This document shows, piece by piece, positions 17,224 through 44,350 of a stretch of 47,825 nucleotides of DNA. The notes beneath the pieces are model-generated. The model had not been told where the DNA came from. It did no database searches and worked only from the letters and a program-made list of their open reading frames with translations. The position numbers and the translations under genes are program-made. This DNA is from Bacteroidota bacterium. Its GTDB lineage: Bacteria; Bacteroidota; Bacteroidia; Bacteroidales; UBA1715. Location: NCBI GenBank assembly GCA_009786075.1, contig WQTX01000009.1, forward strand, positions 1 to 47,825, written 5' to 3'. Each line of letters starts with the position of its first letter. The first letter of the stretch is position 1.

Positions 17224-17231
17224 TTTTAGAA

Positions 17232-17894
17232 ATGAAAACAATAAAATTACTAATAATAGGATTAACTCTTTCGCTATTTGCAAATGGGCAAACCATAAAA
17301 ATTCAAGGTGGAACTTCGATTTCAAAATTGAATTTGGAAGTATTTGATAACACAGCGTTTAATAACACCCTGATTGGTTATTCTTTTTTTGTGGGCATGG
17401 ATTATTTTGATAAAAAATATTGTAATCTGTCGAGCAACATTGGTATGTTCAGGAGAGGTGGCAAACATGACATTCCGGCATATGATGAAAATGGCGACCC
17501 ATTGGACTGGAGTGTTACGGGAAAAATCACATTAGATTATGTATCGTTAAACACCATGATTGATTTGAAATACCCAATAAAAGAAAAATTTTCGCCATTT
17601 ATTAGTGTTGGTCCTCGATTAGATTATTTGGCAGCGAGTAATCTCATTACCGATGCAGGAAAAGAATTTGGAATAAAAAAAGAGAAAATAAATGGTTATG
17701 AAAATTTTGCATTCGGATTGTTGTGCGGCGCAGGATTGCGCTACGATATTTCAAATTTTCAATTTGGTGTGCGAACCGATTACTATGTGGATTTTACAAA
17801 GATAGCAAAGGTAAATGCAACAAATCTTGCAGAAATAACGGCAAATACTTTCACCATTAATTTGACTTTGGGCTACAAATTAAATAAAAAATAA
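17232..17894 (+). CDS. Outer-membrane beta-barrel protein (PorT-like), accessory insertion
   Basis: 220 residues with signal peptide MKTIKLLIIGLTLSLFANGQ. The mature part has alternating hydrophobic strands (FFVGMDYF, LDYVSLNTMIDLKYPI, FSPFISVGPRLDYL, FAFGLLCGAGLRYDI, FQFGVRTDYYVDF, TFTINLTLGYKL), typical of the small eight-stranded PorT/OmpA-like beta-barrel group in Bacteroidetes. It interrupts the rsmH-ftsL junction and is bracketed by two ~65-base direct copies of the CCCCCTAAAT repeat, so it looks like a later insertion rather than a dcw gene. Whether it is expressed from the dcw promoter is unknown. Confidence 0.75.
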   Translation: MKTIKLLIIGLTLSLFANGQTIKIQGGTSISKLNLEVFDNTAFNNTLIGYSFFVGMDYFDKKYCNLSSNIGMFRRGGKHDIPAYDENGDPLDWSVTGKITLDYVSLNTMIDLKYPIKEKFSPFISVGPRLDYLAASNLITDAGKEFGIKKEKINGYENFAFGLLCGAGLRYDISNFQFGVRTDYYVDFTKIAKVNATNLAEITANTFTINLTLGYKLNKK

Positions 17895-17909
17895 AAAACA
17901 AAACATACA

Positions 17910-17976
17910 AAATAAAACCGTACTAATTATTAAACCACAATTCCAAAAGTCCCCCCTGAGGGGGATTTAGGGGGCT
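17910..17976 (-). repeat. CCCCCTAAAT repeat, long form, right of the beta-barrel gene
   Basis: Second direct copy (core 17947-17976) with the same flank (AAAACCGTACTAA, ATTAAACCAC, CAAAAGT). It ends four bases before the ftsL start, so the repeat replaces the normal upstream region of ftsL. Confidence 0.8.
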
Positions 17977-17980
17977 GATT

Positions 17981-18367
17981 ATGAAAGAAGGAATAGACGA
18001 ACCCAAAAAACAACCCAAAGAAAAAAAATCTTCGGGAACTGCGATTGGCTCAATGGCTCGAAACGCTATTGCCGGCGATTTCCTTGCCAATGAAAAAATC
18101 GACAAGCATATTTACTTCATTCTGTTTATTGTGGCATTGGCAATTGTGTATATAGGTCTTGGCAATCAGGTAGATGCTGCTTCGCGAGCTGCCGACAAAA
18201 AGGAAGCGCAAATAAAAGAACTGAGAGCTATATACATATCGAAATACCGAAAACTGAACGAACAACGAACCGCAATGCAAATAAAAGAACTTATAGAAAA
18301 AAATAATATTGATTTAAAAGAATTGAAAGAACCACCTTTCATTATTTCAACTGATGGAAATAAATAA
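17981..18367 (+). CDS. ftsL: Cell-division protein FtsL (Bacteroidetes type)
   Basis: 128 residues: a cytoplasmic Lys/Glu-rich N-terminus (1-43), one membrane segment about 44-62 (YFILFIVALAIVYIGLG) and a periplasmic coiled-coil-like helix (ADKKEAQIKELRAIYISKYRK, split at 70-90, to 110). This is the bitopic FtsL layout and it occupies the ftsL slot between rsmH and ftsI. Its 3' end overlaps ftsI by 14 bases, indicating coupled translation. FtsL links FtsQ and FtsWI in the septal complex. Sequence conservation is low in this family, so the call relies on topology and position. Confidence 0.85.
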   Translation: MKEGIDEPKKQPKEKKSSGTAIGSMARNAIAGDFLANEKIDKHIYFILFIVALAIVYIGLGNQVDAASRAADKKEAQIKELRAIYISKYRKLNEQRTAMQIKELIEKNNIDLKELKEPPFIISTDGNK

Positions 18368-20498: not shown

Positions 20499-20501
20499 AC
20501 T

Positions 20502-22067
20502 ATGGAAAAAGATTTACATATAAACCCCGAAAACTCATCTCTTCCGTCATTCCTGCGAAGGCAGGAATCTCCTACAAAAGGAGAGAGGCAGAATAGTCAA
20601 TCTCTCATTTTGGAGGAGATGCTGAAACAAGTTCAGCATGACGGTCTAATTATAGGCAATCCGTCTATTGAAATCCACGGCATAGAAACCAACTCAAAAA
20701 ATTGCATGGCAAGCTTTGCCTTTGTTGCCCAACGAGGCGTTGCCGTTGACGGACATACATTTATAGAAAAAGCAATAGAAAACGGCGCAACTGCCATTGT
20801 GTGCGAGGAAATTCCTGCAATCACCAATCCAAATATTTGTTACGTGCAAGTAGAAAATTCAGCCGCTGTTTGCGGCAAACTTTTGAAAGCGTTTTATGAA
20901 ATAGATTTCACGCAATTGCAAGTTGTGGGCGTAACCGGCACAAACGGAAAAACCACTGCCGCTACCCTTCTCTATCAAGTATTTACGCAGTTGGGTTATA
21001 CATGCGGATTGATTTCTACGGTGTGCAATTATACAGGTACGGAAAAATCGGAAGCAACGCACACCACACCCGATACGGTGCAATTATACCGTTTGTTCCA
21101 CGCCATGCAGCAAGCCGGTTGCACGCATTGTTTTATGGAAGTGAGTTCGCATGCCATTCATCAGCAACGCATTAGCGGCATTGATTTCACAGGTGCAATT
21201 TTTACAAACCTCACGCAAGACCATTTAGATTATCACAAAACTTTTGCGGAATATTTACGAGTGAAAAAACAGTTTTTCGATAATTTGTCGACTTCGGCAT
21301 TTGCGCTTGTGAACAACGATGATAAAAACGGGCAGGTAATGCTGCAAAACACTCGTGCAAAAAAATACAGCTATTCGCTGAAAAGCATGAGCGATTTTAA
21401 ATGCAAAATCATTGAAAGTCATATTGGTTGCACTCTGTTACAGATAGACGGCACGGAAGTATGGACGAAATTTATAGGCGCGTTCAATGCCTACAATTTA
21501 CTTTCGGTGTACGCCGCAGCCATACTTTTGGGCGAAGACAAACAGGAAGTGTTGCAAATTATAAGTATGCTTACACCGGTTGAAGGTCGCACACAATTTT
21601 ACCGAAATGCAGCCGGACTAACCGCCGTAATCGACTACGCCCACACACCCGATGCACTCGAAAATATTTTAACAACACTCAAAAAACTCTGCACGGCTGA
21701 TAATAAATTAATAACCGTAGTAGGCGCAGGCGGCAACCGCGATACCGCCAAACGTCCGCTTATGGGTGCAATTTCTGCACAATTGAGCGACACCGTTATT
21801 CTCACTTCCGACAATCCGAGAGATGAAAACCCTGCCTGCATTGCTATACAAATGTTAGACGGTATTCCTACCGAAGAACGTTCAAAAGTGATTACCATAC
21901 TCGACCGCAAAGAGGCAATTCGCACGGCTACCATGTTTGCCAAACCAACTGATATTATTCTTATTGCCGGAAAAGGACACGAAACGTATCAGGAAATTTT
22001 GGGAGTAAAACATCATTTTGATGATAAGGAGGTTGTGCAGGAAATTTTCAATATGCCAATAAAATAA
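20502..22067 (+). CDS. murE: UDP-MurNAc-L-Ala-D-Glu ligase MurE, with an N-terminal repeat insert
   Basis: Cytoplasmic ATP-dependent ligase adding the third stem-peptide residue. Seen: N-terminal MurE fold from about residue 50 (IEIHGIETNSKN, FAFVAQRGVAVDGHTFI), ATP loop VTGTNGKTTAATLL, the central EVSSHAIHQQR and the C-terminal SDNPRDENP. The DNPR motif marks meso-diaminopimelate specificity. The odd part is residues 15-48: 101 bases (20544-20644) bounded by CCGTCAT and ATGACGG are a mobile palindromic element read in frame (PSFLRRQESPT to QVQHD). It replaces the segment that is normally the first helix, LLxELL. The frame stays open, so the protein is probably made. Confidence 0.93.
   Translation: MEKDLHINPENSSLPSFLRRQESPTKGERQNSQSLILEEMLKQVQHDGLIIGNPSIEIHGIETNSKNCMASFAFVAQRGVAVDGHTFIEKAIENGATAIVCEEIPAITNPNICYVQVENSAAVCGKLLKAFYEIDFTQLQVVGVTGTNGKTTAATLLYQVFTQLGYTCGLISTVCNYTGTEKSEATHTTPDTVQLYRLFHAMQQAGCTHCFMEVSSHAIHQQRISGIDFTGAIFTNLTQDHLDYHKTFAEYLRVKKQFFDNLSTSAFALVNNDDKNGQVMLQNTRAKKYSYSLKSMSDFKCKIIESHIGCTLLQIDGTEVWTKFIGAFNAYNLLSVYAAAILLGEDKQEVLQIISMLTPVEGRTQFYRNAAGLTAVIDYAHTPDALENILTTLKKLCTADNKLITVVGAGGNRDTAKRPLMGAISAQLSDTVILTSDNPRDENPACIAIQMLDGIPTEERSKVITILDRKEAIRTATMFAKPTDIILIAGKGHETYQEILGVKHHFDDKEVVQEIFNMPIK
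20544..20644. repeat. CCGTCATTCCTGCGAAGGCAGG element inside murE
   Basis: A 101-base element with 7-bp inverted ends (CCGTCAT and ATGACGG). It contains two internal hairpins, TCCTGCGAAGGCAGGA and GCTGAAACAAGTTCAGC. It is related to widely dispersed non-autonomous repeats and encodes about 34 in-frame residues of MurE. Confidence 0.85.
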
Positions 22068-22084
22068 TACGACAATATGACAAT

Positions 22085-22160
22085 TAGAAAATTAAACAAT
22101 TAACACATTCATTCATTAAAATATTGGCACATTGGCATATTGTCCAATTGGCATATTAAA
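22085..22160. repeat. Low-complexity ATTGGCACATTGGCATATT spacer
   Basis: The murE-mraY gap contains repeated ATTGGCA/TGGCATATT and ACAATTA-like units, related to the murC-ftsQ gap (32284-32425). No gene is seen. Confidence 0.6.
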
Positions 22161-22179
22161 ATCAAACCACTAAAAATAT

Positions 22180-23430
22180 ATGTTATACTATCTATCAACC
22201 CTCCTCCAAGACCTCAACATCCCCGGCATGGGCGTGTTCAATTATTTAACTTTCCGCAGTGGCGGCGCGTTTATAACCTCGCTTATTATTACCATTATTT
22301 TTGGTAAATATGTGATTCAATTTTTGCAAAAAAAGCAAATGGGCGAAATTGTGCGTGATTTGGGTTTGGAAGGGCAAATGCAGAAAAAAGGCACGCCAAC
22401 TATGGGCGGCGTGTTGATTTTGGGGGCAATTATTATTCCTACATTGCTGTTTGCCAAATTGAGCAATGTATATATTCTGCTGCTGCTTTTTACCACCGTG
22501 TGGTTTGGTTTCGTGGGTTTTTTCGACGATTATTTGAAAAAAATAAAAGGCAACAAAGACGGACTTGCCGGTAAATGGAAAATTTTAGCGCAGGTTATAC
22601 TTGGTTTGTGCGTGGGTTTAACCCTGTATTTGAGCAACGATGTGGTGGTTGTGAAAAAAGCAACCGTACAAAATGTAACCGAAATACAAAAAGGCAAGCA
22701 TTATGCCGACGATAATATAGAACAAACTCGCGCTCAACGTTTTGGCGAAAAATCGACAAAATCGACCATTCCATTTTTGAAAAACAATGAATTTGACTAC
22801 AAATGGTTTGTGAGTTTTATGGGCGACAAAGCGCAAATGTTTGCGTGGATTGTGTTTGTAATAGCCGTAATATTTATTACCACCGCCGTATCGAACGGCG
22901 TAAATCTTACCGACGGTTTGGACGGACTTGCCGCCGGAACAACGGCAATTGTGGGCGTGGTGCTGGGCATACTTGCCTATCTTTCAGGTAATATTTTCTA
23001 TGCCGATTATTTGAATATTATGTACATTCCCCATTCCGGCGAAATGGTGGTGTTTGCAAGCGCATTTATTGGCGCCACGCTGGGATTTTTGTGGTACAAT
23101 TCCTTTCCTGCACAAATATTTATGGGCGATACAGGCAGTTTAGCCTTGGGTGGAATTATCGGCGTGTTTGCCGTTCTTATTCGCAAAGAGTTGTTGTTGC
23201 CGATTTTGTGCGGTATATTTTTTATGGAAAGCCTCTCGGTTATAATACAGGTAACATATTTTAAACACACCAAGAAAAAATACGGTGAAGGACGGCGCAT
23301 TTTCCTTATGACACCCTTTCATCATCATTATCAGAAAAAAGGTTTGCCCGAATCGCGCATTGTAGCTCGGTTTTGGATTATAGCTCTTTTACTTGGCGCT
23401 TGTGCTTTGATAACATTAAAACTTAGATAA
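22180..23430 (+). CDS. mraY: Phospho-MurNAc-pentapeptide translocase MraY
   Basis: 416-residue polytopic membrane enzyme that transfers phospho-MurNAc-pentapeptide to undecaprenyl phosphate, making lipid I. Family motifs: [11 protein letters not shown] (about 70-80), [11 protein letters not shown] (about 114-124, the Asp-Asp pair), [17 protein letters not shown] (about 240-256), [12 protein letters not shown] and the C-terminal [12 protein letters not shown]. About ten hydrophobic segments are visible. Residues about 155-205 form a longer hydrophilic loop ([19 protein letters not shown]), as is usual in Bacteroidetes MraY. The protein is intact, with no repeat insert. A CCCCCTAAAT repeat begins four bases after its stop. 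Confidence 0.96.
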
Positions 23431-23433
23431 AAA

Positions 23434-23490
23434 AGCCCCCTAAATCCCCCTCAAGGGGGACTTGGGGAAGTGCGAACTCCGAAGGGTAGG
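23434..23490 (+). repeat. CCCCCTAAAT repeat with GAACTCCGAAGGGTAGG tail
   Basis: Core 23434-23463, then the second flank type GAAGTGCGAACTCCGAAGGG. The same tail follows the core at 27391 and, degenerate, at 28139. It sits between mraY and an accessory membrane-protein gene. Confidence 0.8.
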
Positions 23491-23546
23491 AAAAAATAGA
23501 AGAATTGAAAAACAAAAAAATATAAAACAATTTAAAAATCAAAAAA

Positions 23547-23915
23547 ATGATAGAAGAAATAACACAAGAAAACCAATTCCCAGCAAAGACAAGAATTAGG
23601 TATGTCTTAATTATCATTTTGCTGACAGTGTTCAACATTTTTGCGTTTACATTTTTTGTTCACGGTAAAGATTTTGAAAAAGATATAATGGGAAATTTCA
23701 CAAACGCATTGACGACTTTTGTATTTGCCTTACCTATTTTAAGTTTAATAATTGGACTTATTGTTGCCCTTTTCACGTACAAACAATTGGAGTACAAAAA
23801 GAAATATTTTCGTTCATTTTTATTAACACTTGGAAGTATCAACGTTTTATTCGCAATAGGACTTTTTCTAACAATTGTAATGAAACTTTTAGGTTATCCT
23901 CTCTCATCTATTTGA
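23547..23915 (+). CDS. Small three-helix membrane protein, accessory insertion
   Basis: 122 residues with three predicted membrane segments (about 19-40 VLIIILLTVFNIFAFTFFV, 56-78 and 91-112) and short charged loops (KQLEYKKKYF). No family recognised and no catalytic motif seen. It lies between mraY and murD, which are normally adjacent, directly after a CCCCCTAAAT repeat. It has AT-rich codon use compared with its neighbours, suggesting acquisition. It could be co-expressed with the dcw genes, but a division role is not supported. Confidence 0.6.
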   Translation: MIEEITQENQFPAKTRIRYVLIIILLTVFNIFAFTFFVHGKDFEKDIMGNFTNALTTFVFALPILSLIIGLIVALFTYKQLEYKKKYFRSFLLTLGSINVLFAIGLFLTIVMKLLGYPLSSI

Positions 23916-23962
23916 TAAAAGAAAAAATAAGACACAAGTTAAAAAGATAAAAAAATAAAACA

Positions 23963-25393
23963 GTGAATAACAAACAACTCATAGTAATACTCGGAGCCGG
24001 CGAAAGCGGTGTTGGTGCGGCAATTTTGGCGCAGCAGCAGGGTTTTGATGTGTTTGTGAGTGATGCCGGAGCTATTGCCGAAAACTATAAAACGCAATTG
24101 CAAGAGCGGAATATAGAATTTGAAGAAGGCTCGCATGAGAGGGTGTTGGAAATTATCGCTAACGCCACCGTAGAGACGCAATGCATTGCGTCTCTACAAA
24201 TTGAGGTCATCAAAAGCCCCGGCATACCCGAAAAAGCACCGATTATTCAAGCAATTCGTAAAGCAGGAATACCTATAATTTCGGAATTGGAATTTGCCGC
24301 TCGCTACACCGATGCAAAATTAATTTGTATTACCGGCAGCAATGGAAAAACCACAACTACTATGCTTACCTATTATATATTGCAACAAGCAAGATTAAAT
24401 GTTGGGTTGGGTGGAAATGTAGGAAAAAGTTTTGCCTTACAGGTTGCCGAAGAAAACAAATCAACAAATCAACAAATTAACAAATCAACAAAATACTACG
24501 TCTTAGAAATCAGCAGCTTCCAACTCGACGACATGTACAATTTCAAAGCCGATATTGCAATTCTGCTCAACATAACTCCCGACCATTTAGACCGTTACGA
24601 GTACAATTTTCAAAATTATGTAAATTCAAAAATGCGGATTTTACAAAATATGACCGCCAACGACACCATTATTTTTTGCGCCGACGATGAAGTGCTTGTG
24701 CAAGAAATGCAAAAACACACAACGAAAGCCAAAGTACTTAGTTACACAACGAAAAACGACAATACAAAACAAGGTTTCTTAAGTCCCCCTAAGGGGGATT
24801 TAGGGGGCTTAATTACCATACAAAACACTGAAACACTTTTAATAGACCCTAACAGTATGCAACTTCAAGGAATACACAATTACGGAAATTCAATGGCAGC
24901 AGCCATTGCCGCACAAACAATTAATATAAAAAGCGAAGTTATTCGCGAAAGTTTGCAAACATTTGCAAGCGTGGAACACCGGCTTGAAAAGCTGCCGTTT
25001 ACCGTGCGCGGCGTAGAATATATAAACGACAGCAAGGCAACAAACGTAAATTCCACATGGTATGCCCTCGAAAGCATGACCGATAACGTGATTTGGATTG
25101 CCGGCGGAACCGACAAAGGCAATGAATATGAAACATTGTTCGATTTGGTTTCAGAAAAAGTGAAAGCCTTGATTTGTTTGGGAGTTGATAATACAAAATT
25201 GATTGAAAGTTTTAACGGTCGAGTACCGGTATTGGTTGAAACAAAAAGTATGCAAGAAGCCGTTGAAAAAGCCTACGAACTTTCACAAAAAGGCGATACG
25301 GTATTGCTTTCTCCGGCTTGTGCGAGTTTTGATTTGTTTAAGAATTATGTAGATAGAGGGGTGCAGTTTAAAAATGAAGTGAGGAATCTTTAA
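23963..25393 (+). CDS. murD: UDP-MurNAc-L-Ala D-glutamate ligase MurD, with three repeat inserts
   Basis: Cytoplasmic ligase adding D-Glu to UDP-MurNAc-L-Ala. It starts at GTG (23963), giving MNNKQLIVILGAGESGVGAA. Motifs: the uracil-binding GAGESGVG, ITGSNGKTTTTML (ATP loop), EISSFQLD, ITPDHLDRY, and the C-terminal HRLEKL and NDSKATN. Three stretches are explained by repeats: residues about 70-78 (VETQCIASL, the 28-bp palindrome at 24170-24197), about 165-177 (KSTNQQINKST, an ACAAATCA microsatellite at 24455-24493) and about 273-283 (SPPKGDLGG, a CCCCCTAAAT repeat at 24781-24810). All keep the frame and all fall outside the recognised motifs. Confidence 0.94.
   Translation: MNNKQLIVILGAGESGVGAAILAQQQGFDVFVSDAGAIAENYKTQLQERNIEFEEGSHERVLEIIANATVETQCIASLQIEVIKSPGIPEKAPIIQAIRKAGIPIISELEFAARYTDAKLICITGSNGKTTTTMLTYYILQQARLNVGLGGNVGKSFALQVAEENKSTNQQINKSTKYYVLEISSFQLDDMYNFKADIAILLNITPDHLDRYEYNFQNYVNSKMRILQNMTANDTIIFCADDEVLVQEMQKHTTKAKVLSYTTKNDNTKQGFLSPPKGDLGGLITIQNTETLLIDPNSMQLQGIHNYGNSMAAAIAAQTINIKSEVIRESLQTFASVEHRLEKLPFTVRGVEYINDSKATNVNSTWYALESMTDNVIWIAGGTDKGNEYETLFDLVSEKVKALICLGVDNTKLIESFNGRVPVLVETKSMQEAVEKAYELSQKGDTVLLSPACASFDLFKNYVDRGVQFKNEVRNL
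24170..24197. repeat. 28-bp perfect palindrome inside murD
   Basis: Half-site GTAGAGACGCAATG, perfectly palindromic over 28 bases. It is identical to the copies at 31008-31035 and 31605-31632 in murC but read here in a different frame (VETQCIASL). Confidence 0.9.
24781..24810 (-). repeat. CCCCCTAAAT repeat inside murD
   Basis: Reverse-orientation core (AAGTCCCCCTAAGGGGGATT, then TAGGGGGCTT) read in frame as SPPKGDLGG between two strands of the central domain. Confidence 0.85.
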
Positions 25394-25520
25394 GGTCAAA
25401 AATTTTGACCGCAAATTAAAAAAAAACGATATAAGACACTGAAATACAATAACTGGTGGAAAATTTCCACCAGTTCATAAAAAAGATAAAAACAATAGGT
25501 AGTCGAAAATTTCGACCACC
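25394..25520. repeat. Three covarying palindromes upstream of the ORF6N gene
   Basis: GGTCAAAAATTTTGACCG (25394-25411, touching the murD stop); a perfect 25-bp palindrome with half AACTGGTGGAAA (25451-25475); and an imperfect one with half GGTAGTCGAAA (25498-25520). All share a GGT...AAAATTT...ACC frame with different inner bases that still pair. The first is identical over 18 bases to a stretch inside the ORF6N coding sequence (25733-25750). Confidence 0.85.
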
Positions 25521-25538
25521 TTAAAAAAAAGATAAAAC

Positions 25539-26093
25539 ATGGAATTAGTAAAATATAACGATGTAAACGATAAAATTATATTGCTCCGCAATCAGCCTAT
25601 TTTATTGGACTGCGATGTGGCGGCATTGTATGGCGTGGAAACAAGGGACATAAATAAAGCTGTAAAAAATAATCCACAAAAATTTCCCGAAGGATATATT
25701 TTTTCAGTGCAAAGTGCTGAAAGACAGCAACTGGTCAAAAATTTTGACCGGTTCGATAATCTTAAACATTCGATAAGCACAAAAGCCTTCACAAAAAAAG
25801 GCTTATACATGCTCGCCACAATTCTAAAAAGCCCAATAGCAACACAAACCACCATTGCCATAATCGAAGCTTTCGACAAAATGCAAGAAATGTCGGCATC
25901 AATAGTAGAACTGATGAAAGACCACGAAAATGAACAAAAACAAAAAACGCTCATACAAAAAGGCGAAGAATTATTTGGCGAAATCATAGGAACTGCCTTA
26001 GACACGGTAGATACCGAAACGAGTTTTGAACTCAACCTTGCTGCATTTAAAATAAAACATACTGTGAAACGGAGTAAAAAAGAACATGGATAA
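25539..26093 (+). CDS. ORF6N-domain protein
   Basis: 184 residues with an N-terminal ORF6N DNA-binding domain (about 8-95): KIILLRNQPILLDCDVAALYGVETRDINKAV, split around 12-42, then NPQKFPEGYIF and the conserved TKKGLYMLATILKSPIATQTT. The C-terminal part is helical and charged. ORF6N proteins are phage- and mobile-element-associated regulators. It sits between murD and ftsW, normally adjacent. The segment QLVKNFDRF is encoded by a 25-base near-perfect palindrome (25729-25753) whose core is copied in the non-coding DNA upstream, suggesting self-recognition or spread of the palindrome. It is an accessory gene, probably not a division gene. Confidence 0.85.
   Translation: MELVKYNDVNDKIILLRNQPILLDCDVAALYGVETRDINKAVKNNPQKFPEGYIFSVQSAERQQLVKNFDRFDNLKHSISTKAFTKKGLYMLATILKSPIATQTTIAIIEAFDKMQEMSASIVELMKDHENEQKQKTLIQKGEELFGEIIGTALDTVDTETSFELNLAAFKIKHTVKRSKKEHG
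25729..25753. repeat. Palindrome within the ORF6N coding sequence
   Basis: Twelve-base arms AACTGGTCAAAA and TTTTGACCGGTT around one central base; one T-G wobble. Core identical to 25394-25411. Confidence 0.85.
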
Positions 26094-26098
26094 AAATA

Positions 26099-26178
26099 GA
26101 TAAAACGCTACGCTGATAAATTGTGCTATGCACGATAAATTTTATCGCCGCAGGCATTTATCAGCAAAGCGTTTTATC
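26099..26178. repeat. GATAAAACGCT inverted repeat before ftsW
   Basis: Arms GATAAAACGCTACGCTGATA (from 26099) and its near-complement ending TTTTATC (26156-26178) enclose a second small hairpin (GCACGATAAATTTTATCG). It is a non-coding palindromic repeat of a separate family filling the ORF6N-ftsW gap. Confidence 0.75.
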
Positions 26179-26207
26179 GCGAAGCATTTATCAAAAAAAA
26201 TTTAAGC

Positions 26208-27512
26208 ATGAAAATTTTAACCGACATATTCAAAATAAAATTAGAAGGTGACAAAGTAATTTGGCGTATCTTCTTCATTTTCGCGATTTTATCGTTGCTT
26301 GCGGTATATACAGCTTCGTATATGAAAGCATCGAGAGGCGGCGGCATTGATAAAGCGGCTTTTGATATGCTCATAAAACATTTTGTGGGTTTTGTTATCG
26401 GCTTCGCAGTTATGTATTTTGTGCACAAACGCGATTATCGTATTATTTTCCGCTGGTCGAATATTATTCTTGCTGTTAGTTTTATACTTGTTTTGCTGTT
26501 GCACATGGGGTTTGGGGTGTCCAAAAACGAGGCGGTGCGATGGGTAAATTTATATGGTCTGTCGTTTCAGCCGGGCGAAGTTGCCAAATTTGCACTTATT
26601 GTATTTATTGCAAAGCAACTCGCTATGAACCAAAAAGATATTGGCAATAAAAAGAAAGTGCTATACCCCATTGCTATTGTTACGTTTATCATGGTTGCTT
26701 TGTTGTGGAAATCGGGATTTTCTACCGTGCTGTTTTTGATTTTGATAGCATTTGTAATGCTTATTTTGGGACGTTTGCCGTGGAAACAAATATTTGCAAT
26801 CATTGGAATTGGCTGTGCTGCCGGAATGATTGTACTTGGGTTGGCACTCAAAAGTCCCGATACTTTGGGCAATCGAGGAGGAACTATACAAACACGTTTG
26901 ACCTCATTTGCACCGAAGTTGAAACCATACGCCAAAATTGTAACAACGTTAAGCGATAAAGAAAACAGTTTGCAACAAGACTACGCAAAAACCGCCGTAG
27001 CCTTAGGAAAAACACCTGCCGGACCGGGCAATAGTGTCATGAAAAAACGTGTACCCGAAGCCGAAAGCGATTTCATATTCTCAATTATTATTGAAGAATA
27101 TTCGGCTCTTGCGGCATTGTTGCTTGTGGGTTTATACATTGCCTTGCTTTTTCGTGCCGGACGTATTATGCAAAAATGCGAATATTCATTTCCGGCATTG
27201 CTGGTTATGGGATTGGCATTTTATATTGTATTTCAAGCATTTATACACATGGGAATTAACGTGGCGCTTTTGCCGGTAACGGGGCAAACGTTGCCGTTTA
27301 TCAGTTGGGGAACTACTTCGTTGATTGTTTCGTGCTTGTCGTTGGGAGTGATTTTGAGTATTAGTAAGGAAGTGCAGCCACAAAAAGCACAGCCCCCTAA
27401 ATCCCCCTCAGGGGGACTTGAAGAAGTGAAAACTCCGAAGGGTAAGAAAAAAACGGAAGAGGCAGAAACAGAAGAAATTGTAGAACAAATAGACAATAAG
27501 ACAGAAGACTAA
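26208..27512 (+). CDS. ftsW: Septal peptidoglycan glycosyltransferase FtsW (SEDS)
   Basis: 434-residue polytopic SEDS polymerase that makes septal glycan strands together with FtsI. About ten membrane segments. SEDS motifs: RWVNLYGLSFQPGEVAK (about 110-126), the ESDFIFSIIIEE segment holding the catalytic Asp (about 284-295) and NVALLPVTGQTLPFISWGTTS (in two blocks around 345-365). Beyond the last helix (about residue 390) there is a hydrophilic tail. Its start, QPPKSPSGGLEEVKTPKGK, is translated from a CCCCCTAAAT repeat (27391-27447), followed by an acidic stretch EEAETEEIVEQ. The enzyme core is intact. Confidence 0.95.
   Translation: MKILTDIFKIKLEGDKVIWRIFFIFAILSLLAVYTASYMKASRGGGIDKAAFDMLIKHFVGFVIGFAVMYFVHKRDYRIIFRWSNIILAVSFILVLLLHMGFGVSKNEAVRWVNLYGLSFQPGEVAKFALIVFIAKQLAMNQKDIGNKKKVLYPIAIVTFIMVALLWKSGFSTVLFLILIAFVMLILGRLPWKQIFAIIGIGCAAGMIVLGLALKSPDTLGNRGGTIQTRLTSFAPKLKPYAKIVTTLSDKENSLQQDYAKTAVALGKTPAGPGNSVMKKRVPEAESDFIFSIIIEEYSALAALLLVGLYIALLFRAGRIMQKCEYSFPALLVMGLAFYIVFQAFIHMGINVALLPVTGQTLPFISWGTTSLIVSCLSLGVILSISKEVQPQKAQPPKSPSGGLEEVKTPKGKKKTEEAETEEIVEQIDNKTED
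27391..27447 (+). repeat. CCCCCTAAAT repeat in the ftsW C-terminal tail
   Basis: Core 27391-27419 with the GAAGTGAAAACTCCGAAGGG tail; translated as about residues 395-413 of FtsW. Confidence 0.85.
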
Positions 27513-27531
27513 TAGACACAAGACAAAAACA

Positions 27532-27558
27532 AATTGTGTCCACAGTGTGGACACAATT
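27532..27558. repeat. 27-bp perfect palindrome (AATTGTGTCCACA half)
   Basis: Perfect 13-base arms around a central G. First of four related palindromes around the zinc-ribbon gene. Confidence 0.88.
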
Positions 27559-27597
27559 GACAGAAAAACATGAAAGGAATTTTGAAAAACAAAACTG

Positions 27598-27647
27598 AAT
27601 AATAACCACAGCTCAAAAAGTCCCCCTTGAGGGGGATTTAGGGGGCT
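27598..27647 (-). repeat. CCCCCTAAAT repeat, long form, before the zinc-ribbon gene
   Basis: Core 27618-27647, preceded by AATAACCACAGCTCAAAAAG. An equivalent direct copy precedes murG (28877-28923), so the pair brackets two accessory genes. Confidence 0.8.
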
Positions 27648-27662
27648 TTTAAACTAAAAGAA

Positions 27663-27941
27663 ATGGAAAACGATGTATTAATTTGTCAAAGTTGCGGAAT
27701 GCCTATGAAATCGGCACAAGATTTCGGTACGAATGTGGACGGAAATCCCAATCAGGAGTATTGTAATTATTGCTATCAAAACGGAGCATTTACCCGCACT
27801 GTTACGATGGAAGAAATGATGGAAACCAACCTGCAATTCCTCGACCATTGGAATAAAGAAACAGGGAATAATTTTACGCCCGATGAGGCTCGTCCGATTT
27901 TGCGGGAGTTTTTAGGTACTTTAAAAAGGTGGAAATCTTAA
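27663..27941 (+). CDS. Putative zinc-ribbon protein
   Basis: 92 residues. N-terminal zinc ribbon CQSCGMPMKSAQDFGTN (about 9-25) with a second pair CNYC (about 34-37) and YQNGAFTR. This matches the stand-alone zf-ribbon family often found as small cytosolic proteins, sometimes joined to transcription-regulator-like or methyltransferase domains. The C-terminal half is helical. It lies between ftsW and murG, flanked by covarying palindromes and bracketed by long CCCCCTAAAT repeats, so it is an accessory insertion. Its molecular role is unknown. Confidence 0.75.
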   Translation: MENDVLICQSCGMPMKSAQDFGTNVDGNPNQEYCNYCYQNGAFTRTVTMEEMMETNLQFLDHWNKETGNNFTPDEARPILREFLGTLKRWKS

Positions 27942-27950
27942 ATCAATCTG

Positions 27951-28065
27951 AATTGTGTAGACACTGTCGACACAATTGGCGGAAAACATGTAATAATTTA
28001 AAAAGTGTACTCAGTGAGTACACAATTCAGAAAAAACGAATTGTCGCGACAGTGTCGCGACAATT
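27951..28065. repeat. Three covarying palindromes after the zinc-ribbon gene
   Basis: 27951-27977 (half AATTGTGTAGACA, one mismatch), 28005-28023 (half GTGTACTCA, perfect) and 28039-28065 (half AATTGTCGCGACA, perfect). The long ones keep the outer AATTGT/ACAATT and ACA-N-TGT centre, while the middle bases change on both arms together. In the rest of this 339-base gap, 28078-28128 could encode an acidic C-terminal scrap (LEESSDENDDED) and a repeat follows. No gene is supported. Confidence 0.88.
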
Positions 28066-28138
28066 GACAACAAAAACAAATAAACTATTTTTTAGAAGAA
28101 AGTAGTGATGAAAATGATGATGAGGATTAAAAAGACAA

Positions 28139-28200
28139 AGCCCCCTAAATCCTCCCCCCTCAAGGGGGACTTGAAGAAGTACGAACCCCGAACGGTAGGA
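28139..28200 (+). repeat. CCCCCTAAAT repeat, degenerate tail
   Basis: Core 28139-28172 with an extra CCTCCC in the arm, then GAAGTACGAACCCCGAACGG. Between the zinc-ribbon gene and the next membrane-protein gene. Confidence 0.75.
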
Positions 28201-28280
28201 AAAAGAAGAAAAATAAACAATAACAGAAAAGACACAAGTTGCAATAAACAAAGAAAGATAAATCTATAAAAATAATTATT

Positions 28281-28880
28281 ATGGACGAAAAGGAAAAAAT
28301 AGAATTTGAAGAATCATTAGCATTGAGAAATTTAGAACTTAATCTCTTTTGGCAAAGAAGTTGGTTTTTTGGAGCATTATTGTTAGCAGTGGTTTCAGGT
28401 TATTTTGTCAATATTGAAAAAGGACCATTTGTACCACCAATATGCGTTTCATTTTTATTGGTGCTAATTTCGTTGTTTCAAAGTTTAATGAACAGAGGGA
28501 GCAAATATTGGCAAGAAAGGTGGAAACATTATACACAAGATATAGAAAAATCAATAAGGATAAATGTATTAAAAACAGAGATGCCTAACAGTAAGGAACG
28601 CAAAAAAATTGATAAGGACATAACAGATAAAAAGGAAAATTTTCTCACTAAATCTCGAAAATTTTCGGTTTCAAAATTAACAATTTTAGTTTGGGATATT
28701 ATTTGTTTATGTTCTTTTATGTTGTGGGGACATGATATTTTCAGAATATTTTCTTCTCCAAATATTGATTGTTACTTTACTGTGAAAATTGTCGGATTTC
28801 ATTTGATTATTGGAATTTATATCTTCCTTTTTTGGTGGAGAGGAAGAGTATTTGAAAACATCAACAAACAAAATAATTAA
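28281..28880 (+). CDS. Four-helix membrane protein, accessory insertion
   Basis: 199 residues. Two membrane segments near 30-45 (FFGALLLAVVSGYFV) and 52-69, then a charged cytoplasmic loop starting NRGSKYWQERWKHY (about 72-85) and rich in Lys, then two more segments near 134-150 and 170-187 (FHLIIGIYIFLFWW). The NRGSKYWQERW segment recurs in a family of small bacterial membrane proteins of unclear role, possibly RipA-like; I could not settle this. It is AT-rich relative to the dcw genes and lies between ftsW and murG inside a repeat-bracketed block. No division role is supported. Confidence 0.6.
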   Translation: MDEKEKIEFEESLALRNLELNLFWQRSWFFGALLLAVVSGYFVNIEKGPFVPPICVSFLLVLISLFQSLMNRGSKYWQERWKHYTQDIEKSIRINVLKTEMPNSKERKKIDKDITDKKENFLTKSRKFSVSKLTILVWDIICLCSFMLWGHDIFRIFSSPNIDCYFTVKIVGFHLIIGIYIFLFWWRGRVFENINKQNN

Positions 28881-28923
28881 ACCACAGCTCAAAAAGTCCC
28901 CCCAGAGGGGGATTTAGGGGGCT
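28877..28923 (-). repeat. CCCCCTAAAT repeat, long form, before murG
   Basis: Core 28894-28923 with the flank ATTAAACCACAGCTCAAAAA. Direct partner of 27598-27647. It overlaps the stop of the preceding gene by a few bases and ends 21 bases before murG. Confidence 0.8.
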
Positions 28924-28944
28924 GACTTTTTAAAACATAAAGCT

Positions 28945-30817: not shown

Positions 30818-32293
30818 ATGAACAACAACATAACAACATATTATTTTCTTGGCATTGGCGGCATTGGAATGAGCGCTTTGGCTCGGTATTTCAATGCCAA
30901 AGGTTTTTGTGTTATGGGTTATGACCGCACGTGTACGCCTTTGACTTTGGAATTGGAATGTGAGGGGATTGATATTCATTACAGCCCGCAAGTTCCGTCG
31001 GTGTGTTGTAGAGACGCAATGCATTGCGTCTCTACGCCGGAAAACACAATCGTTGTATATACCCCTGCCGTTCCCGAAGATTTTGAAGAATTTCAATATT
31101 TTAAAAATAACGGTTTTACAATGTTGAAACGTGCACAAGTATTAGGCGAAATTACACGCAATAGCAAAGGAATTTGCATAGCCGGAACGCACGGAAAAAC
31201 TACAACTTCTACAATGACGGCGCATTTGTTATATCAATCGGAAATTGGTTGCAGTGCGTTTTTGGGTGGTGTTTCTAAGAATTATGATACGAATTTGCTC
31301 GTAGGGGCGCACCTATGTGTGCGCCCTGACACGGGTACAAACATTGATAATGGATGCGCACACGCCGACAATAAGGGCGCACACGCAGGTGCGCCCCTAC
31401 GGGAATACGTCGTTATTGAGGCAGACGAATACGACCGTTCATTCCACCAATTAACGCCATACATGGCGTTGATTACCACCGCCGATGCAGACCATTTAGA
31501 TATTTATGGGACAAAAGAGGAATTTCGTAAAAGTTTTGAAAAATTTGCCTCATTGGTCAAAGAAAATGGTTTTTTGGTTGTAAATGAAAAAGTTGATTTG
31601 GATTGTAGAGACGCAATGCATTGCGTCTCTACGTACACGTATGGAATGAACCGCGGCGATTTCCACGCCGAAAATATTACAATCGCAAACGGCGAAATTA
31701 CCTTTGATTTTGTAACGCCACAAGAAACCATAAAAAACATTCAACTCGGCGTTCCGGTATTAATAAATGTTGAAAATGCTGTAGGAGCTATGGCACTTGC
31801 ATATTTAGCAGGCGTAAAACCCGAAGAATTACGTAACGCAATGGCAACATTCAAAGGCATAAAACGCCGTTTCGATATTCAAGTAAAAACCGGCAAAATC
31901 GTATATATCGACGATTATGCCCACCACCCCGAAGAATTAAAAGCAAGCATTTCGTCAATCAAAGCATTGTACCCAAACAGAAAAGTATGCGGAATTTTCC
32001 AACCGCATTTATATTCTCGCACTCGTGATTTTGCACAGGAATTTGGCGCAAGCCTTTCGTTGCTCGACGAACTGATTTTGCTCGATATTTATGCCGCACG
32101 AGAATTGCCGATTGAAGGAATTACATCGGACGTGATTTTTGAAAACGTAACAATTGAAAATAAAATGCGAGCGAAAAAAGAAGATGTACTCGATATTTTG
32201 AAACGAAAAAATGATATAGATGTGCTGGTAACTTTTGGCGCAGGCAATATTGACCAACTTGTGAAACCGATAACAAATTTAATATGCCAATAA
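30818..32293 (+). CDS. murC: UDP-MurNAc L-alanine ligase MurC, with three repeat inserts
   Basis: Cytoplasmic ligase for the first stem-peptide residue. Motifs: FLGIGGIGMSALARYF (about 10-25), AGTHGKTTTSTM (ATP loop, about 125-136), EADEYDRSFHQLTP, DHLDIY, FQPHLYSRTRDF and DDYAHHPEE. Three inserts keep the frame: residues about 64-73 and 263-272, both CRDAMHCVST from identical 28-bp palindromes (31008-31035, 31605-31632); and about 161-195 (GAHLCVRPDTG to GAPLRE) from a 102-base palindromic element (31300-31401). The last lies exactly where other MurC proteins run directly from KNYDTNLL to YVVIEADE. The core motifs are intact, so the enzyme is probably functional. Confidence 0.94.
   Translation: MNNNITTYYFLGIGGIGMSALARYFNAKGFCVMGYDRTCTPLTLELECEGIDIHYSPQVPSVCCRDAMHCVSTPENTIVVYTPAVPEDFEEFQYFKNNGFTMLKRAQVLGEITRNSKGICIAGTHGKTTTSTMTAHLLYQSEIGCSAFLGGVSKNYDTNLLVGAHLCVRPDTGTNIDNGCAHADNKGAHAGAPLREYVVIEADEYDRSFHQLTPYMALITTADADHLDIYGTKEEFRKSFEKFASLVKENGFLVVNEKVDLDCRDAMHCVSTYTYGMNRGDFHAENITIANGEITFDFVTPQETIKNIQLGVPVLINVENAVGAMALAYLAGVKPEELRNAMATFKGIKRRFDIQVKTGKIVYIDDYAHHPEELKASISSIKALYPNRKVCGIFQPHLYSRTRDFAQEFGASLSLLDELILLDIYAARELPIEGITSDVIFENVTIENKMRAKKEDVLDILKRKNDIDVLVTFGAGNIDQLVKPITNLICQ
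31008..31035. repeat. 28-bp perfect palindrome in murC, first copy
   Basis: Half-site GTAGAGACGCAATG. Encodes CRDAMHCVST with flanking bases, inside the N-terminal Rossmann domain. Confidence 0.92.
31300..31401. repeat. 102-base CGTAGGGGCGCACCT element in murC
   Basis: Ends CGTAGGGGCGCACCT (31300-31314) and AGGTGCGCCCCTACG (31387-31401) are perfect inverted repeats; inner arms ATGTGTGCGCCC and GGGCGCACACG extend the pairing. 102 bases is a whole number of codons (34). Confidence 0.92.
31605..31632. repeat. 28-bp perfect palindrome in murC, second copy
   Basis: Identical to 31008-31035 and in the same reading frame, again giving CRDAMHCVST, in a loop of the central domain. Confidence 0.92.
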
Positions 32294-33504: not shown

Positions 33505-35106
33505 ATGACAACACATTCAACACACAAAAAAATTGACGAAGCTAAGATGTTTTCGGCAATAGACATAGGCTCAACCAAAGTAGTGGCTCTTAGCGGCTAT
33601 CGTAACGAACGCGGCGAAATAGTGGTCGTGGGTCACGGCGTGGTCAATTCGCTCAATTTGGATATCGACAAAGAAAAAGAGCAATTGAACATTGAAAATA
33701 TCAGAACTGCAATTCTTGCGGCAGTAGACACAGCTCACAAAGAAGCCGGTTTTTTCTGCAAAAAAGTGGTAGTGGGTGCTGCCGGACGATTTATGCGCAG
33801 CGCTGCCAAACGTATAGATTTTATGCGACCTCTGCCATTTGACCCCATTACAGCAAAAGAAATTGACCAGCAATTCACACAAAAATTTAGCGATTTAGTG
33901 GAATACAACGAAAAAATTCTACACCTAAAAATTTTGAATTATACGGTTGATGAAGAATTTTATTCCGATGCGCCTATCGGCAAAACCGGCTCTTCGGTGT
34001 CGATGAGCGTGTGCATTATAAAAATAAAAAGCGATTATTTGCAACAACTTCGTTCGCTTATGGAGCAATGCGGAATGGAAGTTGCCGAATTTATGCTTGA
34101 ACCATTGGCATCGAGTGCGGCGGTATTGACTGAAAATGAACGAAATGCAGGTTGCACACTCGTAGATATTGGCGGCGGAACTACCGATATGGCACTGTAT
34201 GAAAACGGTAACTTGCAATTTGCCGAAGTTATTCCTTTGGCGGGAAATTGCATTACCAACGATATTCGTCAAGTACACATAATCAATGCGTTAGACGGCG
34301 GTAAAATACAGTACGCTGCCGAAGATTGGAAAATTGCCGAGCAAATTAAAATAAAATGCGGCAAATGTATGGCTGACGAAGCCGATGCGCCGCGAAGAAT
34401 AAAAATTGGGGCAAGCGCACACCGCGAAGCATTGGAAATTTCACTTTTTGAGGTGGCGCAAACTATTCAAAATCGTATGGACGAAATTGTGGCAGCGGTG
34501 CACGGTATGATACAATACTCGAAATGCTCCACAGCTACCGAAAAAGGAATTATACTTACCGGCGGCGGCGCAGAATTGAAAGATATTGCATATTTCTTTG
34601 AACAAAAATTACATTGTCCGGTGCGTGTGGCAGTGCCAAATCAAGTAGAGGTGCGCAGCAAAACGTTTGATTGCCACAATCCGCGCTATGCAACGGTTGT
34701 AGGGTTGCTTATGCGAGCATCTGAAATTCATGCCCAAACCTACGTTCCGCCGATGGAAACGCCCGAAGCTGAGGTAGTGAAAAAATCTGCGCCGCAAGTT
34801 TCGACACCAGCTTCGGCACAAGTGCAAACACCGGTTGTAACACAAGCTCCGGTTACAGCGGAAACTTCAAAAACTCCCGAGGTAAAAGCACAACCCGAAG
34901 TAACAGTGAAACCGGAAGTAACAGTAAAACCGGAAGTAAAAACAGAGCCAAAACCGGAACCTCCAAAAGTTACAGTAACAACCAAAAAAGAAAAAACCAA
35001 GAAACCCGGTTTACTTTCAAATTTTGGCAAAAAAATGAGCCAAGCAGCAAATGATTTTGCAGGCGCAGTATTTGCCGACACAGAAAATGATGAATTAAAA
35101 AACTAA
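33505..35106 (+). CDS. ftsA: FtsA paralogue 1 (divergent, long linker)
   Basis: 533 residues, actin-like ATPase of the FtsA family. Nucleotide motifs are intact: AIDIGSTKV (about 17-25), VDIGGGTTDMAL (about 220-231) and LTGGGAELKD (about 350-359). The 1C subdomain is present, but the usual VIPQxY segment is changed to LKILNYTVDEEF. After the fold (about residue 415) comes a long Pro/Val/Lys linker with repeats of EVTVKP and a C-terminal amphipathic helix (LLSNFGKKMSQAANDF), a probable membrane anchor. The second ftsA follows 22 bases later. Two tandem ftsA genes are unusual; this copy looks like the specialised one. Partner choice with FtsZ is unknown. Confidence 0.9.
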   Translation: MTTHSTHKKIDEAKMFSAIDIGSTKVVALSGYRNERGEIVVVGHGVVNSLNLDIDKEKEQLNIENIRTAILAAVDTAHKEAGFFCKKVVVGAAGRFMRSAAKRIDFMRPLPFDPITAKEIDQQFTQKFSDLVEYNEKILHLKILNYTVDEEFYSDAPIGKTGSSVSMSVCIIKIKSDYLQQLRSLMEQCGMEVAEFMLEPLASSAAVLTENERNAGCTLVDIGGGTTDMALYENGNLQFAEVIPLAGNCITNDIRQVHIINALDGGKIQYAAEDWKIAEQIKIKCGKCMADEADAPRRIKIGASAHREALEISLFEVAQTIQNRMDEIVAAVHGMIQYSKCSTATEKGIILTGGGAELKDIAYFFEQKLHCPVRVAVPNQVEVRSKTFDCHNPRYATVVGLLMRASEIHAQTYVPPMETPEAEVVKKSAPQVSTPASAQVQTPVVTQAPVTAETSKTPEVKAQPEVTVKPEVTVKPEVKTEPKPEPPKVTVTTKKEKTKKPGLLSNFGKKMSQAANDFAGAVFADTENDELKN

Positions 35107-35128
35107 AAACAACTATACAATATTATAT

Positions 35129-36502
35129 ATGGAATCAACAGTAACACACAGAGCACCAATAGACGAGCGCAAAGCGTTTTCGGCTATCGACATAGGAACA
35201 ACAAAAATTGTCGCCCTTACCGGCTATCGCAACGAGCGTGGCGAAATTGAAGTATTGGGTTGCGGCAGCGTAACATCGAACGGTGTAACACGCGGCAATG
35301 TGGTAAACATTGAATTGGTAGTGCAATCTATTAAAACTGCGGTGGAAAAAGCGCACGCCGAAGCCGGATTTTTCTGCAAAAAAGTAATAGTGGGCGTTGC
35401 GGGGCAGCACATTCGTTCGGCGCACAATCGTAACGCCGTCAATCGCGACAAGCCTTCGCAGGCTATTACGCAGAAAGAAATTGACAATTTGAAAGCCGAA
35501 AACCGTCATGTCAATTTAGATATTGACGAAGAAATTATCGACGTCATTCCGCAAAGCTATTTGATTAATTCACAGCATGTTACCAACACTCCCGTAGGTA
35601 TGGCGGCACACCGTGTTGAAGGAAATTACCACGTAGTGATAGGCAAAACCGAAGCGTTGAAAAACATTCGCACGGCAATTACCCGTATTGGTTTGGAATT
35701 GCAAAGTTTTATGTTAGAGCCGCTTGCATCGGCAAAATCGGTTACCACACCCGAAGAACGCGAACTCGGTTGCGCAGTGATTGACATAGGCGGCGGCACT
35801 ACCGATATAGCAATTTACCACGACAACACCGTGAAATTTACCGAAGTTATTCCTTTCGGCGGAAACGTTATTACATACGATATTCAAGAAGCATTTAAAA
35901 TGCTTTTCAACGAAGCCGAAACTATGAAAATCACTCACGCACACTGTATTCAAGATGCTGCGCCGAACGATATAATTACCATTCCGGGTGTAAATGGCAG
36001 AGCGCCTCGCGAATATACCATGAAAACGCTTGCCGGAATTACCCAGTGCCGCATGGAAGAAATTATTGATGCCGCGTCGTATGTAATTGAAACATCGGGT
36101 TATAAAAACCACTTGGGGGCAGGAATTATTGTAACAGGCGGCGGCAGCGAATTGAAAGATTTACCGCAACTGCTTTCGTTCAAAATGCGCAACGAAACCA
36201 AAATCGGCAAACCGCTTCACGCCGTGCGTTACCCACACCAACCCCGAACGTTCAACTCGCCGAAATATGCAACAGCAGTCGGTTTACTTATGCGTGCTGC
36301 CGAAGTGCACAACTATTCCGCAAGCGAACCAATTGCCGCACCGGAACAAGAAATTATTACGGCAACCAAAGAAACAGTTGAAGAAAAAACCAAATCAGTA
36401 ATGAAATCATTCGGAATTAAAGGTTTCCTTAAAGGAATTATTGGAAATAAAAATTATGATGAGGAATATGCTAAGCAGGATACGCGGATATTGGTTGAGT
36501 AA
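35129..36502 (+). CDS. ftsA: FtsA paralogue 2 (canonical divisome FtsA)
   Basis: 457 residues. All actin-fold motifs are present: AIDIGTTKIVALTGYRNERG (about 19-38), IDIGGGTTDIAIY, VTGGGSELKDLP, and the conserved DVIPQSYLIN in the 1C region that is lost in the upstream paralogue. The C-terminus has the membrane-targeting amphipathic helix VMKSFGIKGFLKGIIGN (about 425-441). This is the copy expected to tether FtsZ to the membrane. Nearly identical N-terminal blocks in the two proteins (FSAIDIG.TK, GYRNERGEI, AEAGFFCKKVIVG-like) indicate that they arose by tandem duplication and then diverged. Confidence 0.94.
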   Translation: MESTVTHRAPIDERKAFSAIDIGTTKIVALTGYRNERGEIEVLGCGSVTSNGVTRGNVVNIELVVQSIKTAVEKAHAEAGFFCKKVIVGVAGQHIRSAHNRNAVNRDKPSQAITQKEIDNLKAENRHVNLDIDEEIIDVIPQSYLINSQHVTNTPVGMAAHRVEGNYHVVIGKTEALKNIRTAITRIGLELQSFMLEPLASAKSVTTPEERELGCAVIDIGGGTTDIAIYHDNTVKFTEVIPFGGNVITYDIQEAFKMLFNEAETMKITHAHCIQDAAPNDIITIPGVNGRAPREYTMKTLAGITQCRMEEIIDAASYVIETSGYKNHLGAGIIVTGGGSELKDLPQLLSFKMRNETKIGKPLHAVRYPHQPRTFNSPKYATAVGLLMRAAEVHNYSASEPIAAPEQEIITATKETVEEKTKSVMKSFGIKGFLKGIIGNKNYDEEYAKQDTRILVE

Positions 36503-42601: not shown

Positions 42602-43810
42602 TTAGTTATTTTTTGTGTTCACAAGTTCTTTTAAAATTCTAACGGGAGTATTTTGATTTTTGGCAACGCTACTACGCACTGTTAATTTACTATCTTTTGC
42701 TAATTCTCGTAATATTTCTATTGGAACATTCGGATTGAGAGCTACGCCACTGCGCACCCATTCACTAGTATCTTTTGCTAACTCTTTCAAAATTTCTATT
42801 GGAGTGTTTGGATTTTCTGCAACTGCTTTTCGAACTACTGAATATTTATCTTTTGTTAATTCTTGTAACGTTTCTATTGATGTATTTGGATTATTTGCAA
42901 CTGCAACCCGCACATCATAATCACTATTTTTTGCCAAGTTTTCTAACACTTTTGTTGGTGCATTTGGATTGCTTGCGACCCGCTTACAATCCTTCGCTAA
43001 TTCTTGTAAAATTTCTGTTGGTGTATTTCTATTTCCTGCAACTCTTGCACGAATATTAGAAAGAGTATCCATTCCTAACGCTTTTAAAGTATAAGGGTCG
43101 CGTGCAACACCCCAACGAACTACTGTATCAGTATTTTTAGCAAACTCACTTAAAATTTCTGCCGGAGTATTGGGATTGGCAGCAACCATCTCTCGAACAT
43201 CGGGAATAGTGTCTTTTGCCAATTGTTGCAATATCTCTATCGGTGTATTTCTATTTGCAGCAACATCCATACGCACCTTAACACCATTGTCTTTTGCTAA
43301 TTCTTGTAATATTTCTATAGGTGCATTTTTATTTCGAGCCACTGCTCTACGACTTTCATAAATTCCTCTCGCACGTTCAATTAAAATCTCTGTTGGTGTG
43401 TTTGGATTTTCTGCAATATCAACACGAACCCACCACTCTCTATCATTCGACAATTCTTTAAATATTTCTAAAGAAATATTTGGATTTTTAGCAACTGCAC
43501 AACGAATATGGAATGATTCAGATTTCGCTAATTTTTCCAATGTTTTCATCGGGGTTTGGGGATTTTCAGCAACTTGTATAAGAATACCTTGCTTATCATT
43601 CGTTGCTAATTTTTTCAACGTTTTTGGTGGTGTATTTGGATTTGCGGCAACAGTCCAACGAACAAAATAAACACTATCTTTTGTTAATTTTCGTAAAATT
43701 TTTATCGGTGTATTTGGATTTGAAGCGACAGCTACACGAACCTGTGATTGCCCCGAAACCGCCAAACAAACAGTCAATAATAAACCCGATAAAAATAATT
43801 TTGCTTTCAT
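42602..43810 (-). CDS. Exported leucine-rich-repeat-variant (LRV) solenoid protein
   Basis: 402 residues: signal peptide MKAKLFLSGLLLTVCLAVSG, then about 15 copies of a 24-residue unit with consensus VAxNPNTPxEILxELAKDxxxxVR. This is the LRV/HEAT-like alpha-helical repeat first described in a nitrogen-fixation protein of Azotobacter. The ninth unit is degenerate (VARDPYTLKALG) and the eleventh is short. No iron-sulfur Cys cluster is present. It should form a curved helical scaffold in the periplasm or at the surface for protein binding. The 72-bp DNA period makes copy-number change by recombination likely. It lies inside the hdr gene group with no known link to it. Confidence 0.85.
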   Translation of the reverse strand: MKAKLFLSGLLLTVCLAVSGQSQVRVAVASNPNTPIKILRKLTKDSVYFVRWTVAANPNTPPKTLKKLATNDKQGILIQVAENPQTPMKTLEKLAKSESFHIRCAVAKNPNISLEIFKELSNDREWWVRVDIAENPNTPTEILIERARGIYESRRAVARNKNAPIEILQELAKDNGVKVRMDVAANRNTPIEILQQLAKDTIPDVREMVAANPNTPAEILSEFAKNTDTVVRWGVARDPYTLKALGMDTLSNIRARVAGNRNTPTEILQELAKDCKRVASNPNAPTKVLENLAKNSDYDVRVAVANNPNTSIETLQELTKDKYSVVRKAVAENPNTPIEILKELAKDTSEWVRSGVALNPNVPIEILRELAKDSKLTVRSSVAKNQNTPVRILKELVNTKNN

Positions 43811-44171: not shown

Positions 44172-44180
44172 AAGTTAAAA

Positions 44181-44245
44181 AGCCCCCCTAAATCCCCCCT
44201 CAAGGGGGACTTTTGGAACTGTGGTTAATTATTTATACTGTTTTA
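44181..44245 (+). repeat. CCCCCTAAAT repeat, long form, between hdrA and hdrC
   Basis: Core 44181-44212 with six Cs in each arm, then the complement of the long flank (TTTTGGAACTGTGGTTAATT). It faces the copy at 44320-44350 across about 75 bases. Confidence 0.8.
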
Positions 44246-44319
44246 ATTTTGTGCATTTCGTTTCTCTATAAAGAGTTGAAAATTTCAGGGTTATTGAAAA
44301 TATTCGTTACTTCTTCAGC

Positions 44320-44350
44320 AAGTCCCCCTTGAGGGGGATTTTAGGGGGCT
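44320..44350 (-). repeat. CCCCCTAAAT repeat supplying the hdrA stop codon
   Basis: Core AAGTCCCCCTTGAGGGGG then ATTTTAGGGGGCT. Read from the minus strand the frame of the hdrA-like gene enters it as Ala-Pro-stop (GCC CCC TAA), so the repeat provides the last two residues and the terminator codon (44341-44343). Confidence 0.85.

Follow-up and report, generated by a model that had tools for sequence, protein, structure and literature searches.

Palindromic elements in frame within murC and other genes of a Bacteroidales-type genome

The RPEs of Rickettsia are dispersed palindromic repeats translated in frame in unrelated genes, according to the account of Ogata et al. (2000, 2002) given in PMC6649704. 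GTAG-tagged REPs are palindromic repeats of 20–40 bp that start with GTAG; some are intragenic, and most are extragenic (Di Nocera et al., 2013, PMC3733652). The same study notes that the recB genes of two Xanthomonas species, X. campestris and X. oryzae, carry different REPs in roughly the same place (PMC3733652). REPINs are paired inverted REPs that form a long hairpin and occur as species-specific populations (PLoS Genet 2011, PMC3116915). In the mitochondria of Nematomorpha, perfect palindromes lie in functional coding genes, and template switching has been proposed to keep their perfection (PMC6649704). No description of such elements in Bacteroidales genes was found in the literature searched, the coverage of which was partial, and the element sequence, used as a string, matched in papers only unrelated, mostly primer-type sequences. 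Here we describe palindromic elements in a window of 47,825 nt (contig WQTX01000009.1) and in the rest of the genome to which it belongs.

Three palindromic elements in murC

The host gene murC (30818..32293, plus strand) is an intact ORF of 491 aa encoding UDP-N-acetylmuramate--L-alanine ligase. In a profile search its product scored 346 bits against TIGR01082, above the curated cut-off of 335, in agreement with the family assignment of an earlier note made from the DNA alone. That note also reported two identical perfect palindromes of 28 bp (GTAGAGACGCAATGCATTGCGTCTCTAC), which are present at 31008..31035 (site 1) and 31605..31632 (site 3); both consist of loop-free 14-bp arms and are read (T)GT-AGA-GAC..., giving CRDAMHCVST. 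The element of 102 bases, or 34 codons, between them (31300..31401, site 2) consists of facing GTAG-type REPs, namely GTAGGGGCGCACCTATGTGTGCGCCCT and its near-complement. Its inverted ends, described earlier as 15 bp, extend to 28 nt with 93% complementarity, the outermost 15 bp being perfect. With two inverted GTAG stem-loops and GTAG at both outer ends, it has the form of a GTAG REP pair or REPIN. The three elements are thus of two kinds: sites 1 and 3 hold GTAGAGACG...CGTCTCTAC palindromes that pair over their full length, whereas site 2 holds a GTAG-type REP dimer.

All three elements are in frame, and none of the invariant residues of 29 aligned MurC sequences falls inside any of them, in agreement with their reported position outside the ligase motifs. 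They occupy non-conserved positions, which correspond to loops of the predicted structure. In the AlphaFold2 model (mean pLDDT 88.8), residues 170–192 of the large insert are below 50, the block with most of element 1 averages 55, and element 3 lies in a block averaging 83; both short elements are placed between strands. HMMER alignment to solved MurC structures gave a 10-residue gap at about residues 63–72 and a break between residue 163 and residues 187–199. Against close homologues, the gaps are not exactly 10 residues.

Loop lengths were counted between invariant or conserved anchors and compared with those of relatives. Loop 1 has 27 residues here and 20–25 in relatives (median 23), and loop 2 has 47 against a median of 18. 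Loop 3 has 31 residues, equal to the median of relatives, despite containing 10 palindromic codons. The elements are therefore not simple 10-codon insertions. In MurC of one relative (G013, L048), an in-frame TAG stands at the Tyr of 'VYIDDYAHH', reflecting a sequencing error or a pseudogene.

A dispersed palindrome family and its host genes

The metagenome-derived genome of this bacterium (G000) comprises 3.18 Mb in 176 contigs, with a contamination estimate of 5.76%, and the genome-wide analysis covers the places found by search and the stretches retrieved. The search proposed in the earlier note found dispersed copies: the exact 28-mer occurs 23 times and, within three mismatches, 29 times, while a reversed-pattern control gave 0. 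Dinucleotide shuffles of the window gave no match to the palindrome pattern. A wider pattern with constant arms and a free centre is found at 40 places, and palindromes of the GTAG...CTAC kind number about 45 in the genome. The 28-mer is laid out as a constant outer stem, GTAGAGACG...CGTCTCTAC, around a variable 10-bp centre. Being a palindrome, it reads the same in either orientation. Of the three frames, those giving VETQCIASL and RDAMHCVS are open; the third starts with a TAG stop, so that only two are usable.

The third copy in the window (24170..24197) lies in frame in murD, whose product scored 380.6 bits against TIGR01087, and uses the other open frame, giving VETQCIASLQ. murD also carries, at 24781..24809, an in-frame member of a second palindromic family (AAGTCCCCCTAAGGGGGATTTAGGGGGCT), which adds six codons (SPPKGDLGG) relative to eight relatives. 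Elements of the AAGTCCCCCTTGAGGGGGATTTAGGGGGCTT type of this second family occur about ten times between or within division-cluster genes (window 17048–28931 and 44178–44347); they add codons to MurD and TrpF, and in RsmH and FtsW they lie where the C terminus is encoded. Singles and pairs related to the 102-base element are present elsewhere in the genome. Two further features of the window were observed: two adjoining genes at 33505–36502 match FtsA (TIGR01174, 247 and 328 bits) and contain repeated DNA stretches, so that ftsA is duplicated in tandem within the division cluster, and a gene at 42602–43810 is made of about ten imperfect tandem repeats of 78 bp (26 residues).

Surface loops of about a dozen genes other than murC carry such palindromes in frame. 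According to the ORFs around the copies, the hosts are MurD, PolA, ValS, TrpF, a ThiE-like protein, efflux proteins resembling HlyD and CzcA, a permease, and two paralogous OMPs, to which several T9SS sorting tails are added. Models support the names of the T9SS tails (TIGR04183), MurD (TIGR01087), and ValS (the valS model); PolA, TrpF, the ThiE-like, HlyD-like, and CzcA-like proteins, the permease, and the OMPs are what we take the remaining hosts to be from sequence resemblance. A BioG-like protein holds a variant of the GTAGGGGCG type. A cellulase-like protein (L092:398 and 1535) has two palindrome variants, one in an N-terminal signal-like region and the other just before its T9SS tail.

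The system would work, by analogy, like a protein-coding palindrome or an intragenic REP. Like the RPEs, as these are summarized in PMC6649704, it is a dispersed family (23 exact copies), lies in frame in unrelated intact ORFs, and is absent from orthologues at the same site. RPEs are mostly longer, whereas here a perfect 28-mer with a constant arm and a swappable centre replaces loop residues in another phylum; the likeness drawn here is one of mode. The Rickettsia parallel drawn in the earlier note thus stands for RPE-like coding palindromes in a Bacteroidales-type MurC, but intragenic GTAG/CGTC REPs of several phyla are another precedent (PMC3733652). The present elements share with GTAG REPs the GTAG start and the occurrence of some copies in genes, and the 102-base element has the described inverted pair form (PMC3733652). 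The GTAG of classical REPs is unpaired, whereas that of the 28-mer pairs with CTAC in a full palindrome, and we therefore do not file the 28-mer as a classical GTAG REP; in addition, 64% of the non-redundant set is intragenic here and no REP-associated transposase was seen. The 102-base element resembles REPINs in its inverted REP pair, long hairpin, and species-specific populations, but it lies within coding sequence and no RAYT gene was found. The Nematomorpha palindromes are likewise perfect and lie in functional coding genes, but their arms encode conserved residues and they are not a dispersed repeat family.

Intragenic location was scored by the same rule in all genomes (ORF of at least 200 aa, element well inside, non-redundant set). 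In G000, 23 of 36 palindromes (64%) were in frame in long ORFs, compared with 1/31 in G005, 0/23 in G127, 6/28 in G239, and 12/37 in G147; 28-mer loci of other species gave 19/130 (15%), and random positions gave a fraction of 0.61–0.71. Ten of the G000 copies are in T9SS tails, without which 13/26 were in long ORFs. No such tails were found by the filter in the other genomes, yet several C-terminal G239 matches resemble tails. Fisher tests of 13/26 gave p = 8e-5 against G005, 4e-5 against G127, 0.045 against G239, 0.20 against G147, and 2e-4 against other species, so the intragenic excess in G000 is clear against most of them but not against G147. In G147 (L352–L363), palindromes also form tandem arrays with a spacing of about 48–51 bp, some of which are read through in long ORFs.

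Such palindromes are present in 97 of 295 genomes of the order, and the dominant centres of palindrome-rich genomes, such as G000, G005, G127, G147, and G239, differ from genome to genome. The exact 28-mer also occurs in other Bacteroidota and, with phyla taken from the record titles, in MAGs of Planctomycetota, Fibrobacterota, and Desulfobacterota, among others. IMG/VR contained no exact copy, and viral carriers of the 28-mer were rejected on this ground.

Replaced loop residues and different palindromes at the same sites

Orthologues of ValS, MurD, PolA, CzcA, and others in relatives lack the palindrome peptide, and the congener G001 has no palindrome at the three MurC sites or the TrpF site. 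The same residues were also not found at the MurC sites in distant Bacteroidetes. Relative to the nearest empty relative, the net change in codons is 0 in TrpF, +2 in CzcA and BioG, about +4 in HlyD, PolA, and ThiE, +7 in ValS, and, by eye, about +11 in MurD. On these alignments, the elements mostly occupy the space of native loop residues in relatives, with a net change mostly of 0 to +7 codons. Loop lengths rule out a plain insertion of 28 or 30 bp for most sites. The earlier view of the elements as insertions is thus supported by their genome-wide repetition and their absence from the three G001 sites, but they mostly replace native residues rather than forming clean inserts. No dinucleotide duplication of the target site is evident, the empty sites being too diverged. 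TT is over-represented 5' of GTAG, and in some genomes this holds for a single side, hinting at oriented insertion.

The sister species G002, whose MurC is 81% identical (DNA 78%), has its own palindromes at these sites. MurC site 1 is occupied by GTAGAGACGCACAGCCGTGCGTCTCTAC and site 3 by GTAGAAACGCACGGTCGTGCGTTTCTAC, which share the arm family but differ in their centres, while site 2 has an unrelated GC-rich hairpin that encodes APSTPSGGLGG. At the TrpF site of the G000 palindrome, G002 has GTTGAGACGCACGGCCGTGCGTCTCAAC. At most 0.8% of windows in the respective gene are as strong as these four hairpins. At a second TrpF site, the inserts of G000 and G002 are both palindromic and different. 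Drift in place of an ancestral palindrome was ruled out: the G000 copies are identical to more than 20 others, while the MurC DNA differs by 22% from that of G002.

Within G000, two OMP paralogues with flanks of about 87% identical DNA carry palindromes at a site that is the same to the nucleotide, with no indel nearby. Their outer arms are identical and their centres, CAATGCATTG and GGGCATGCCC, have 0 of 10 bases in common. Among the T9SS tails, the centre is GATAATTATC in one and CAATGCATTG in eight, and at a second site in the tails, various elements that start with GTAG are found. Because different palindromes occupy common sites in G002 and in the OMP paralogues, the sites seem older, as judged from these comparisons, than the sequences that occupy them.

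The same data can be read as ordinary REP or MITE insertions that took place anew in every species, in the small number of tolerant loops, the loops varying anyway or being trimmed later, with no renewal of the palindrome. We consider this a serious candidate, though somewhat doubtful. MurC has only about nine indel-tolerant loops, which puts the chance of three coincident independent sites at about 1% (~0.01), not a negligible value; the recB REPs of the two Xanthomonas species are also in roughly the same position, and at five other G000 sites no palindrome of comparable strength is present in G002. The OMP paralogues argue against it, with wholly different centres at the same nucleotide and no indel nearby, and are a stronger case for site persistence than MurC. 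Perfect, identical palindromes also leave little time for trimming, yet TrpF and MurC loop 3 show no net gain over relatives.

Probable movement and translation of the elements, and their meaning

We consider the elements to be, probably, short, non-autonomous, REP-like mobile palindromes that are translated as part of their host proteins. A transposase that acts on hairpins of single-stranded DNA would move the copies in trans, with GTAG as a possible anchor; signs of such an anchor are seen only in a few native loops (e.g., ValS of G001). A copy would survive only if it lies in an open frame and in a loop that tolerates indels, and if its net length is 3n; it would then contribute or replace some ten residues, probably neutral ones. 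The Y1 transposase ORFs examined, four of which were scanned with NCBIfam, include no REP-type transposase: they are IS200-type or weak matches, none reaching the cut-off of the REP-associated model. None of them is flanked by palindromes, and no RAYT transposase flanked by the repeats was found. Mobilization by the genome's own Y1 transposases was rejected on these grounds.

In this reading, occupied sites would persist while the palindrome is renewed, either because a new copy inserts at the same GTAG or through template switching via the common 9-bp arms. Such renewal would explain perfect palindromes at sites that are already trimmed to fit. The turnover of centres is the part that the likeness to coding palindromes or intragenic REPs leaves unexplained. 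More tentatively, and with rather low confidence, the occupied loops may be persistent docking sites, at which an unrecognized process swaps the centre or the whole element in place via the constant GTAGAGACG/CGTCTCTAC arms.

If the palindromes were retained because they are useful, for instance as hairpins in mRNA that slow translation or, in essential genes, as sites of regulation or recombination, this would account for the strong hairpins and the unusually high intragenic share in G000. Such a function is improbable, since the host genes are unrelated, the sequence varies between species, and most orthologues have no palindrome. It is more improbable still that the inserts are bypassed or removed from the RNA: bypassed palindromes are known from a yeast mitochondrion, as mentioned in PMC6649704, but copies outside long ORFs in G000 are mostly near gene ends, often just past stop codons, the usual REP position, and no gene is cut by a stop-frame copy into a clear pair of long fragments. 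Finally, an assembly artefact is barely conceivable despite the fragmentation and contamination estimate given above, because frames are intact in many genes and G002, an independent genome, carries palindromes of its own at these sites.

The range of translated palindromic elements is hereby extended to a genome of Bacteroidales type, in which an unusually large share is intragenic and essential single-copy enzymes are among the hosts. The sister-species and paralogue pairs, in which the same site holds another palindrome, make movement, perfection, and frame-keeping testable by comparison of strains. The palindromes also show one way for new sequence to enter the surface loops of proteins. 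If the occupied loops are indeed docking sites, each lineage would, in its own way, rewrite surface loops of essential proteins time and again with new peptides of ten residues.
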